DNA from: Streptosporangium sp. NBC_01755
GTDB lineage: Bacteria; Actinomycetota; Actinomycetes; Streptosporangiales; Streptosporangiaceae
Reading direction: 5' to 3'
DNA: 64,000 bases
Assembly: GCF_035917995.1 (NCBI RefSeq)
Contig: NZ_CP109131.1
Coordinates: forward strand, 6,138,001-6,202,000
Shown here: piece by piece, positions 15,028-17,030 of the stretch
Layout of the letters: each line of letters begins with the position of its first letter
How positions within the stretch are numbered: the stretch's first letter is position 1
Made by a program: the position numbers and the translations under genes
The notes under the pieces: generated by a model
The model's database searches: none
What the model saw: only the letters and a program-made list of their open reading frames with translations
What the model was told of the DNA's origin: nothing

Positions 15028-16065
15028 TCAGGCCGGGGCCAGGGCGTCGACGGCCGCGACCTTGCCCAGCAGCGGCGGGAACCGCTCCAGCACCCGGGCC
15101 AGCTCGTCCAGATCGCTGTCGACCAGCGCCTGGGGGCCGTCGCAGAGGGCCTGCTCCGGGCGCGGGTGGACATCGATGATCACGCCGTCGGCGCCGGCCG
15201 CGATGGCGGCGCGGGTGAGCGGCAGGACCAGGTCGCGGTGGCCGCCGGAGTGGGACGGGTCGACGATGACCGGCAGGTGCGACAGCCGCTGGGCGAGCGG
15301 CACCGCGGAGACGTCCAGGGTGTTGCGGGTGGCGGTCTCGAAGGTGCGGATGCCGCGCTCGCACAGCACGATGTCGAGGTTGCCGCGCTGGGCGATGTAC
15401 TCGGCGGCCATCAGCCACTCCTCGATGGTGGCGCTCATCCCGCGCTTGAGCATCACCGGCTTGCCCGCGGCGCCGACGGCCTGCAGCAGCGCGAAGTTCT
15501 GCGCGTTGCGGGTGCCGACCTGGAGCATGTCGGCGTAGGAGGCCACCAGCTCCACGTCGGCGGCGTCGACGACCTCGGTGACGACGGGAAGCCCGGTCTG
15601 CTCGCGCACCTCGGCGAGGATGCGCAGGCCCGCCTCGCCGAGCCCCTGGAAGGCGTACGGGGAGGTGCGGGGCTTGTAGGCGCCGCCGCGCAGCAGGGTG
15701 GCCCCGGCGGCCGCGGCCATCCGGGCGGCCTGAAGGGTCTGCTCGGGGGTCTCCACCGCGCACGGGCCGGCGATCAGGGTGACCGTGCCGGGACCGATCG
15801 GCACGCCGCCGACGCGGACCGTGGACCGCTCGGGGTGGTTGTCGCGGCTCACCAGCTTGTACGGCGCGCTCACCCGCATCACGTCGGCCACCCCGGCCAT
15901 GCCCCGCAGGTCGAGAGCGGTGAACTGGGCGACATCGCCGACCAGGCCGATGATCGTGCGGCTCACGCCCCGGCTGACGAACGCCTCGCCGCCCGCCGTG
16001 CCGATGACCTCCACGATCGCCTCGACGTCGTTCTCCGTGGCACCGGGTCCCATGACGATGACCAT
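15028..16065 (-). CDS. aroF: 3-deoxy-7-phosphoheptulonate (DAHP) synthase, type Ib
   Basis: The protein has 345 residues. The first 75 form the ferredoxin-like regulatory domain typical of AroF/AroG-type Ib enzymes (as in Thermotoga), and the rest is the TIM barrel with IAGPCAVE, the FKPRTSPY-like segment (KPRTSPYAFQG), GTRNAQNF and the DPSHSGG motif. It condenses phosphoenolpyruvate and erythrose 4-phosphate, the first step to Phe, Tyr and Trp. It is controlled by a leader peptide and attenuator upstream. In many actinomycetes the main enzyme is the unrelated type II AroG, so this may be a second isozyme. Confidence 0.9.
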   Translation of the reverse strand: MVIVMGPGATENDVEAIVEVIGTAGGEAFVSRGVSRTIIGLVGDVAQFTALDLRGMAGVADVMRVSAPYKLVSRDNHPERSTVRVGGVPIGPGTVTLIAGPCAVETPEQTLQAARMAAAAGATLLRGGAYKPRTSPYAFQGLGEAGLRILAEVREQTGLPVVTEVVDAADVELVASYADMLQVGTRNAQNFALLQAVGAAGKPVMLKRGMSATIEEWLMAAEYIAQRGNLDIVLCERGIRTFETATRNTLDVSAVPLAQRLSHLPVIVDPSHSGGHRDLVLPLTRAAIAAGADGVIIDVHPRPEQALCDGPQALVDSDLDELARVLERFPPLLGKVAAVDALAPA

Positions 16066-16146
16066 GTCTCTCCCTCTCCGATGGCTCCGGCCGGTTCCGA
16101 CCGGCTCCGGGGTCCTGGGTGTTTTCGATGAAAGGCCGGGAAAAGC

Positions 16147-16184
16147 AGAAGGCCCCGAGTCCGAAACCGGACCCGGGGCCTTCT
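16147..16184 (-). terminator. Attenuator terminator in the aroF leader
   Basis: Arms of at least 10 bp (AGAAGGCCCC at 16147-16156 against GGGGCCTTCT at 16175-16184), extended by near-complementary inner bases, are followed on the minus strand by GCTTTTCC. It is an unusually strong, U-tailed intrinsic terminator placed between the leader peptide and aroF. A segment of the leader coding region (16234-16240) is complementary to the 5' arm of this stem and can form the competing antiterminator. Confidence 0.85.
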
Positions 16185-16197
16185 GTTCGCCAGGCTG

Positions 16198-16272
16198 TCA
16201 GCGCAGCATCTGGTGGCGAACGGTCCGACTCACGGGTCCGTCGCCATAAAAAAACCAGAACGCAGTACGCAT
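16198..16272 (-). CDS. aroF leader peptide rich in Phe, Trp and Tyr
   Basis: A 24-codon frame ends 14 bp before the terminator stem. Residues 5-9 are Phe-Trp-Phe-Phe-Tyr, covering all three aromatic amino acids, exactly what ribosome-mediated attenuation of a DAHP synthase would need. Stalling at these codons would leave CGGACCC (plus 16234-16240, codons for GDGP) free to pair with GGGTCCG in the terminator arm and allow read-through. There is no clear ribosome site. A TATCAT hexamer 7-8 nt before the ATG suggests a leaderless transcript starting at the AUG. Too short for automatic gene callers. Confidence 0.82.
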   Translation of the reverse strand: MRTAFWFFYGDGPVSRTVRHQMLR

Positions 16273-16412
16273 AGTCGGAAATGATAGCGCACGGCGAGAA
16301 CACCTCCGTCCCGCAGGCCGGGAGAACGCTATTCGGTGGCCGCCGAGGCGTCGGGAAGCCCGCGATGGCAGGATTACCACGTGCCATAGGGGAAACGGCG
16401 GAGGGAGTGATG

Positions 16413-17030
16413 ATGGAACAGTCCGAACCTTCGGGGGAGGAGCCTCGCCTGCCTCCGGGCCAGTACGTCCCCCGGGGCCGACCGGTGATCCACTACGGTC
16501 GGGTGCCCAGGTTCCGTCCGGAGACGTGGCAGCTGCACGTCATGGGGGCGACGGCCTCGGGCGAGCAGCACCGTTTCACCTGGCCCGAGTTCTCCGCGCT
16601 GCCACGTACCACGATCGTGGCCGACTTCCACTGCGTCACCAAGTTCTCGATCATGGGTAACGAGTGGGGCGGGGTGTCCGCGGCGACGCTGATGGCGGTC
16701 GCTCCGCCCGCGCCCGGTGTGAAGCACGTGATGATCTGGGGCGAGTACGGCTACAGCGCCAACGTGCGCATCGGCGACTTCGACCGCTCCCAGACGATGT
16801 TCGCGCTGGAATTCGACGAGAAGCCCATCGCCATGGAGCGCGGGTTCCCGGTGCGGATGATCGTCCCGCACCTGTACGCGTGGAAGAGCGTCAAGTGGGT
16901 GCGCGCCGTGGAGTACCTGCTGGAGGACAGGCGCGGCTTCTGGGAGGAACGTGGCTACCACAACATCGCCGACCCCTGGCGCGAGCAGCGCTACTCCTAT
17001 CAGGAGGAAGCGGGCGAAGGCCCGCCCTGA
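16413..17030 (+). CDS. Sulfite-oxidase-like molybdopterin oxidoreductase
   Basis: The start is set at ATG 16413, 8 nt after GGAGG (16410 and GTG 16407 are in frame too); about 205 residues. It is the short, cytosolic SUOX-fold type (Oxidored_molyb) with the Mo-ligating Cys in ADFHCVTKFS and WGGVS following. There is no signal peptide and no dimerisation domain. Substrate unknown; relatives include YedY-like reductases. It is followed at 60 bp by the LytS/LytT-type pair. Confidence 0.8.
   Translation: MEQSEPSGEEPRLPPGQYVPRGRPVIHYGRVPRFRPETWQLHVMGATASGEQHRFTWPEFSALPRTTIVADFHCVTKFSIMGNEWGGVSAATLMAVAPPAPGVKHVMIWGEYGYSANVRIGDFDRSQTMFALEFDEKPIAMERGFPVRMIVPHLYAWKSVKWVRAVEYLLEDRRGFWEERGYHNIADPWREQRYSYQEEAGEGPP

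Follow-up and report, generated by a model that had tools for sequence, protein, structure and literature searches.

An aromatic leader peptide and predicted transcription attenuator upstream of a DAHP synthase gene in Streptosporangium and related Actinomycetota

The stretch of Streptosporangium DNA that was analyzed (the window, 64,000 nucleotides) encodes a DAHP synthase on its minus strand. The protein contains a type I catalytic domain (PF00793) and a ferredoxin-like N-terminal domain (PF18152), a combination called I-beta, and it scored over the cut-offs of PRK08673 and DAHP_synth_Bsub (TIGR01361) and under that of BagF/FevY. These Pfam and NCBIfam assignments agree with the type Ib enzyme that had been proposed from the sequence. 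A class II DAHP synthase is also encoded in the same genome, and no frame with three aromatic residues in seven was found for this enzyme or for the prephenate dehydratase of the genome.

Upstream of the DAHP synthase gene lies a short leader frame followed by an intrinsic terminator (Table 1). Direct reading of the sequence bore out the 24-codon frame of the original prediction, from an ATG at 16272–16270 to a TGA at 16200–16198 on the minus strand, with the residues Phe-Trp-Phe-Phe-Tyr at codons 5–9 and a terminator with a U tail behind it. A leader segment complementary to the terminator arm had also been predicted, and was recovered with a different length: CGGACCCG (16240–16233) and CGGGTCCG (16175–16168) match over 8 nt instead of 7 nt. 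The long frame upstream of the leader is divergent and located on the plus strand, so the terminator seems to serve the DAHP synthase transcript alone, and no other gene appears to end here. A weak terminator-like hairpin was seen nearby on the opposite strand. The final codons and stop of the leader (CTG CGC TGA; 16198–16206, minus strand) are near-invariant in many leaders despite variable preceding residues, and no pairing role was found for this segment in the window or in the relatives.

Table 1. Positions of the features at the DAHP synthase locus within the window.
Feature	Position	Strand	Basis or remark
Type I-beta DAHP synthase, presumed regulated gene	15028..16065	-	Pfam PF00793 + PF18152; PRK08673, TIGR01361
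Intrinsic terminator: hairpin 16185-16146, T tract CTTTT 16145-16141	16141..16185	-	folds, terminator scan
Segment 3 TGGCGAAC, just 3' of the stop codon, partner of GTTCGCCA in segment 2 (inner antiterminator helix)	16185..16192	-	
Leader frame MRTAFWFFYGDGPVSRTVRHQMLR + TGA	16198..16272	-	direct reading of the sequence
Segment 2 CCGTTCGCC, 3' arm of the 1:2 hairpin, also partner of segment 3	16215..16223	-	alignment, folds
Antiterminator segment CGGACCCG, copies part of the descending terminator arm	16233..16240	-	core pairing 96.5%, folds
Segment 1 GGCGACGG, 5' arm of the 1:2 hairpin	16238..16245	-	folds, 81.9% of cells paired in A1
Putative regulatory codons 5-9, TTC TGG TTT TTT TAT (F W F F Y)	16246..16260	-	F+W+Y in 73/77 clusters
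-10-like hexamer TATCAT, preceded by TGCGC	16281..16286	-	ends 8 nt 5' of the leader ATG

A search for the DAHP synthase in 120 relatives gave matches in 96 genomes, from which 99 upstream regions were taken, with weaker and partial matches left out. Seven of the regions precede second copies and three are shortened by contig ends (L057, L059, L077), leaving 89 informative first copies. Using a looser test, which required at least three F/W/Y in six residues, and after removal by hand of one spurious frame (L082), an aromatic leader was present at 78 of these loci and absent at 11. In the 78 leaders, the stop codon is located 64–153 nt from the DAHP synthase gene. For most comparisons we used 77 of them (set A), since the imperfect terminator of L048 was missed by the script. 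All three residues F, W and Y occur in the aromatic cluster of 73 of the 77 leaders, and Tyr occurs in every one. The case that had been named as a refutation, in which the terminator is kept and the leader codons are lost, did not occur. Overall, the comparison with the relatives supports the attenuator, its target gene and its aromatic codons.

More stringent criteria were applied in a strict test, which required at least four F/W/Y in eight residues, a frame of 12–40 codons and a terminator within 80 nt. The test was passed by 68 of the 89 first-copy regions, whereas no region passed in any of ten dinucleotide shuffles. Within the window, it was positive in a single one of 364 tiles (350 nt, both strands), and this tile (228; 16101–16450, minus strand) lies over the leader. 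None of the seven second-copy paralogues passed (shuffles 0.1). Among more distant Actinomycetota, 28 of 69 loci passed and no shuffles did; the 69 consist of 29 returned loci and 40 chosen mostly one per family, from 248 genomes with matches, and include five that were wrongly cut, yet counted (L150, L159, L162, L167, L183). We also scanned 80 named loci, less L237 with too little upstream DNA, of which 5 of 13 from actinobacteria and 6 of 66 from other phyla passed (shuffles 0 and 0.1, respectively); named carriers of the leader include Nocardiopsis lucentensis, Nocardiopsis metallicus and an Actinomadura. The arrangement of leader and terminator is real, widely conserved and not due to chance, and its conservation in much of Actinomycetota is new as far as we have searched. 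Two further sets of leaders were used below, 31 hand-picked from the 69 loci of the phylum (set B) and 13 located before chorismate mutase (set C).

Some additional loci were recorded in the course of these scans. The second DAHP synthase copies without an aromatic leader occur in seven genomes (L040, L044, L060, L068, L083, L091, L100) and may belong to secondary-metabolite clusters. In other phyla, aromatic frames with terminators were observed before DAHP synthase at L247, L256, L260, L267, L285 and L230, including WWW frames at L247 and L260, and a MASTERLNHFFGFYFGYYYWTQ frame precedes DAHP synthase in a metagenome-assembled genome of Calditrichota.

The region in front of the leader contains no Shine-Dalgarno-like site between TATCAT and the ATG. 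A promoter scan found no promoter at the locus because the scan also requires a -35 element, and no conserved -35 was found upstream of the leaders of the relatives. In all 77 leaders of set A, a TANNNT hexamer ends 6–8 nt 5' of the start codon, compared to a background of 1.6%, and a Shine-Dalgarno-like site is present in none of them; 57 of the leaders start with ATG and 20 with GTG. Because of this spacing and the lack of Shine-Dalgarno-like sites, the leader is probably translated from a leaderless transcript. A leaderless start was suspected already in the original prediction, and this part stands; that it should be unusual does not, as leaderless trp leaders are reported for Streptomyces lividans in the accessible text of PMC8079986. 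In set B, the hexamer was found at 6–10 nt in 18 of 31 leaders and a Shine-Dalgarno-like site in three. The TANNNT test was positive in 1 of 13 leaders in set C, and CATACT is located near the same place in ten. The bases TGCGC directly 5' of the hexamer (16287–16291, minus strand) have a per-base conservation of 73–92% in the relatives, and may represent either an extended -10 element of an unusual type or the site of a regulator.

The pairings were analyzed in an alignment (A1) of 67 of the 78 leaders, with 11 divergent leaders left out. For the RNA of the window itself (16276–16060, minus strand), the fold is 4.8 sd better than shuffles. The antiterminator core consists of GGACCC or CGGCCC in the leader and the ascending terminator arm (GGGTCC for GGACCC). 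It is paired in 96.5% of cells in A1, as compared to 86.8% in shuffles and 58% after a shift of the pairing by one column. Changes on both sides were seen in two of the six pairs, giving 53 double-change cells versus 22.9 in shuffles, and two of the five covariation measures were not above shuffles, namely double-change pairs (354 of 500 as high) and pair types (500 of 500). In a tree built from the N-terminal part of the protein, the key pair showed four changes of the leader base and two of the terminator base, with only one independent paired change on supported branches, so that most of the cell counts trace back to one or a few events. The terminator is paired in 98.3% of cells, with double changes in 6 of 13 pairs, and the 1:2 hairpin in 81.9%, with two of its eight pairs disrupted in roughly half of the aligned leaders.

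Each leader segment was also compared with its own terminator arm. The pairing was stronger than in shuffles in all three sets (Wilcoxon p = 9e-14 in set A, n = 77; 5e-4 in set B, n = 31; 1e-3 in set C, n = 13), and single loci passed at the 5% level in 21 of 77, 5 of 31 and 2 of 13 cases, respectively. Means for swapped versus own arms were -18.98 versus -21.18 in set A, -17.34 versus -18.51 in set B and -22.59 versus -22.79 in set C. The inner 2:3 helix was above shuffles in set A (Wilcoxon p = 3e-13), and without support in set B (p = 0.12) and set C (p = 0.91). The distant leader L094 has a different pairing sequence (GGCTCCGAG with CTCGGAGCC) and passed its own shuffle test, which its relatives L092 and L093 did not.

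Folding of the RNA in alternative states had been proposed as a check, and most of the states of the model were obtained. Ribosome positions were imitated by masked nucleotides, with mask widths assumed from typical ribosome footprints. The free RNA, ending at the ascending arm, formed the 1:2 hairpin (-40.4 kcal/mol). With nucleotides 1–26, 1–29 or 1–32 masked, corresponding to stalls at codons 5–7, a bipartite antiterminator was formed at -36.3 kcal/mol, with CGGACCCG:CGGGTCCG outside and GTTCGCCA:TGGCGAAC inside. The antiterminator was weaker when nucleotides 1–35 or 1–38 were masked (-28.1 and -25.3, respectively). In the fed state, with nucleotides 58–86 masked and the RNA extending to the ascending arm, the outer pairing of leader and arm was still possible (-20.7). 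The terminator forms in all three full-length folds (free, starved and fed), and the choice between the structures must therefore be kinetic. Since the terminator prevails only after the descending arm has been made, fed and starved states differ in stability and kinetics rather than by exclusion.

The leaders of the E. coli-type trp and pheA operons have alternative 1:2, antiterminator and terminator pairings, and their regulatory codons are located before segment 1. The window leader resembles these in its alternative pairings and in the position of its regulatory codons 5' of segment 1. End-product codons are clustered in a predicted short frame, as seen from the sequence, the relatives and the strict test; an intrinsic terminator is located between leader and structural gene; an antiterminator with few independent events in its history competes with the terminator; and the alignment and the folds both contain the 1:2 hairpin, which a stalled ribosome would open. 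Judging from the sequence comparisons, the DAHP synthase gene is very probably controlled by a ribosome-mediated transcription attenuator of the trp/pheA type, consistent with the attenuator and aromatic codons initially claimed for this gene and with their recurrence in relatives (leader at 78 of 89 loci; strict test passed by 68 of them, as against 0 after shuffling).

According to this model, the transcript would start at the leader ATG or a few nucleotides upstream. If Phe-, Trp- and Tyr-tRNA are all charged, the ribosome would reach the UGA and cover both segment 2 and segment 3, and the terminator would form. With no ribosome, the 1:2 hairpin would form and so would the terminator. If one aromatic tRNA is short, the ribosome is expected to stall in codons 5–9, which would leave 1:2 open and allow CGGACCCG and GTTCGCCA to pair with the ascending terminator arm and TGGCGAAC, resulting in read-through, and hence in a putative OR-logic over three amino acids. 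The response is likely to be graded, in that the antiterminator would be released completely by stalls at codons 5–7; a ribosome stalled at Tyr-9 would cover a portion of it, and tyrosine may therefore act weakly.

The Tyr and Phe codons of the leaders differ from those of the genes behind them. At 30 loci, TAT was used for Tyr in 30 of 30 leader codons versus 1 of 143 in the downstream DAHP synthase genes (Fisher p = 9e-33), and TTT for Phe in 34 of 61 versus 0 of 182 (Fisher p = 4e-25), p values that overstate the difference because related species are not independent. The long frames of the window itself have TTT in 26 of 273 Phe codons and TAT in 14 of 181 Tyr codons. In set A, TAT accounts for 68 of 78 Tyr codons up to the anchor glycine and for 3 of 34 after it (TAC 31 of 34). 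The bias up to the anchor is lacking in set B (TAT 9 of 21, TTT 4 of 50) and partial in set C (TAT 11 of 18, TTT 13 of 23). The rare codons may either slow decoding or else keep the stretch unpaired. Rare UUU and UAU at the presumed regulatory positions in the nearer relatives are new as far as we have searched.

These data bear on the possibility that the attenuator senses mainly Phe (and Trp) and that the Tyr codon is a passenger, with a Tyr-stalled ribosome covering part of the antiterminator. We consider this conceivable, but on balance doubtful. It would fit with the lower stability of the alternative fold (-25.3 instead of -36.3) when nucleotides 1–38 are masked as for a stall at Tyr-9, and with the available description of C. 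glutamicum aroR, which answers Phe and not Tyr limitation (PMC11802643). However, Tyr is present in all 77 clusters of set A, and the shift from TAT before the anchor glycine to TAC after it suggests that the Tyr codon is used, although the excess of TAT could also be a nucleotide constraint. Very unlikely is an arrest of the ribosome by the nascent peptide, with a small molecule and not uncharged tRNA as the signal. A Y-G-x-x-P pattern is indeed repeated 3' of the aromatic residues in many leaders, but the order of the aromatic residues varies while their class is kept (FWFFY, FWRFY, YWFSY, WFSYF and others), and the Gly and Pro codons sit inside the pairing segments, so that RNA pairing explains the pattern. 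Riboswitches and T-boxes regulate aromatic genes elsewhere (tyrosine T-boxes in the accessible part of PMC1262725), but direct binding of an aromatic metabolite or tRNA is highly improbable here, as neither the window nor seven related loci contained a match to any Rfam family at its gathering score and the conserved part is mostly coding frame and terminator. Weak Rfam matches to microRNA families (E up to 5) were dismissed as chance similarities of hairpins. Hardly credible at all is a plain terminator with a chance frame, or the terminator of another transcript: such hairpins are common, and a weak one lies nearby on the other strand, but the upstream long frame is divergent, the leader recurs at 78 of 89 loci and the strict test gave 0 in shuffles of the 89.

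The codon content of attenuator leaders in related genomes, from which the counts below come, appears to follow the branch of the pathway, with F, W and Y at DAHP synthase, F and Y at chorismate mutase and W at trpE, a pattern that is new as far as we have searched. In set B, all three residues were found in 21 of 31 DAHP synthase clusters. Using an RNA model of the leader (R1) in a search of 396 genomes of the phylum, we identified a leader before chorismate mutase in ten genomes of one family (f20), which we take to be Streptomyces-like, judged by its proteins. Together with one leader from each of three further families, this gives a total of 13 leaders, all of which contain F and Y and two of which contain W; the downstream product matched Pfam CM_2 in the two proteins tested, one of which is from f20. 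No match to the window-type DAHP synthase was present in f20 genomes among the matches listed. The Streptomyces-type chorismate mutase gave 11 matches in the 120 relatives, with leaders at four (L132, L133, L136, L138), two of which are loci seen before (L132 and L133 are L104 and L107 again); six have no leader and L135 has chance-looking frames only. Of eight further R1 matches, one is a leader of DAHP synthase (L297) and one repeats the L138 leader (L298), five have no aromatic frame (L292, L294, L295, L296, L299) and L293, judged by its frames, has chance-looking ones only. The gene behind L117 and L299 is presumably threonyl-tRNA synthetase. R1 matches that cover only model positions from about 60–110 onward look like terminators of other genes and were rejected.

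Genes for a chorismate mutase fusion in the family of the window have YFAF-type leaders with a terminator of their own. The leader, terminator and -10 tests were positive at 11 of the 29 fusion loci scanned (of 30 fetched), and the leader contains F and Y without W in all 11. The copy in the same genome as the window (L353) has an F/Y leader and a terminator, and fails the combined test because it has no TANNNT. At trpE, a WW leader was found at 25 of the 30 loci scanned (the 30 best of 39 matches), own genome included; W is present in all 25, and a final Phe falls inside the same six-residue window in 18. The trpE gene of the own genome (L302/L323, G000:C1:7187082-7189205) has a MRYPVALRWWRRF leader, a -10-like hexamer and a terminator. 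The L353 protein (G000:C1:6290569-6291492, outside the window) is 308 aa long and consists of a DAHP-synthase-like domain and a C-terminal chorismate mutase. When it is aligned with the enzyme of the window, the GPC and KPRTSPY motifs of the latter are missing from its DAHP-synthase-like domain, and the protein may be a catalytically dead scaffold.

The aroF enzyme of Corynebacterium belongs to another DAHP synthase subclass. As described in the accessible parts of PMC11802643, PMC4046766 and PMC3890552, aroR of C. glutamicum is an attenuator before aroF with the codons Phe-Tyr-Phe that answers Phe but not Tyr. The suggestion that the arrangement is little described is thereby corrected, since this Phe-responsive attenuator is a precedent (PMC11802643, PMC4046766). 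Both are actinobacterial aromatic leaders before DAHP synthase, and aroR is described with stalling under Phe limitation; they differ, as far as the descriptions go, in that no Trp codon is mentioned for aroR in these accounts. Unlike the trp and pheA leaders and the Streptomyces trpE and trpS leaders, which respond to one amino acid, the window leader contains codons for three and is located at the entry of the pathway.

Other reports, cited from their accessible portions, describe more distant cases. RNA-seq of S. lividans gave eight leaders, none of them at chorismate mutase in the text available to us (PMC8079986). The uORFC-13-1 motif before aroF is a predicted Phe-codon leader with a terminator (PMC8632094); unlike the window leader, it is described from Acholeplasma and environmental sequences only, with a ribosome binding site and with Phe alone named. 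Short F/Y frames are predicted before shikimate genes in a survey of five other genomes (PMC6429828); they resemble the window leader in being short Phe/Tyr frames, and no link to its family was seen in the accessible part. For other groups, putative attenuators are reported upstream of tyrA and of aro operons (PMC1173090), as is an aroF attenuator in Shewanella (PMC2659441), and the accessible sections of PMC4833913, PMC8269248 and PMC11109978 contain nothing on an aromatic leader in front of DAHP synthase. The survey of Seliverstov 2005, which included Thermobifida fusca, reports no conserved RNA structures at Phe/Tyr operons of Actinobacteria in the text available (PMC1262725), where the combined test for leader and terminator used here does find leaders. 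In the literature covered, with few subscription papers, we found no three-amino-acid DAHP synthase leader in these bacteria and no chorismate mutase leaders. Lopatovskaya 2010 may contain related predictions.

Since many related bacteria keep the arrangement, it most likely switches the pathway on when aromatic amino acids are in short supply. The aromatic pathway of these bacteria also feeds antibiotic precursors. With belief and doubt evenly balanced, we suggest that Actinomycetota have an old code of leaderless leader peptides over the whole aromatic pathway, with an F/W/Y OR gate at DAHP synthase, F and Y at chorismate mutase and W at trpE in one genome, and with UUU and UAU, rare codons read by wobble, fixed at the sites of stalling, where they would set the sensitivity. 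In Streptomyces-like genomes, in which no such DAHP synthase was found among the matches listed, a leader of the same RNA model would instead act on chorismate mutase, mostly without a Trp codon. If true, this would be a natural series in which the content of regulatory codons tracks a branched pathway, and it opens two questions to direct test, namely whether three amino acids are integrated by one leader and whether the stall is tuned by rare codons.
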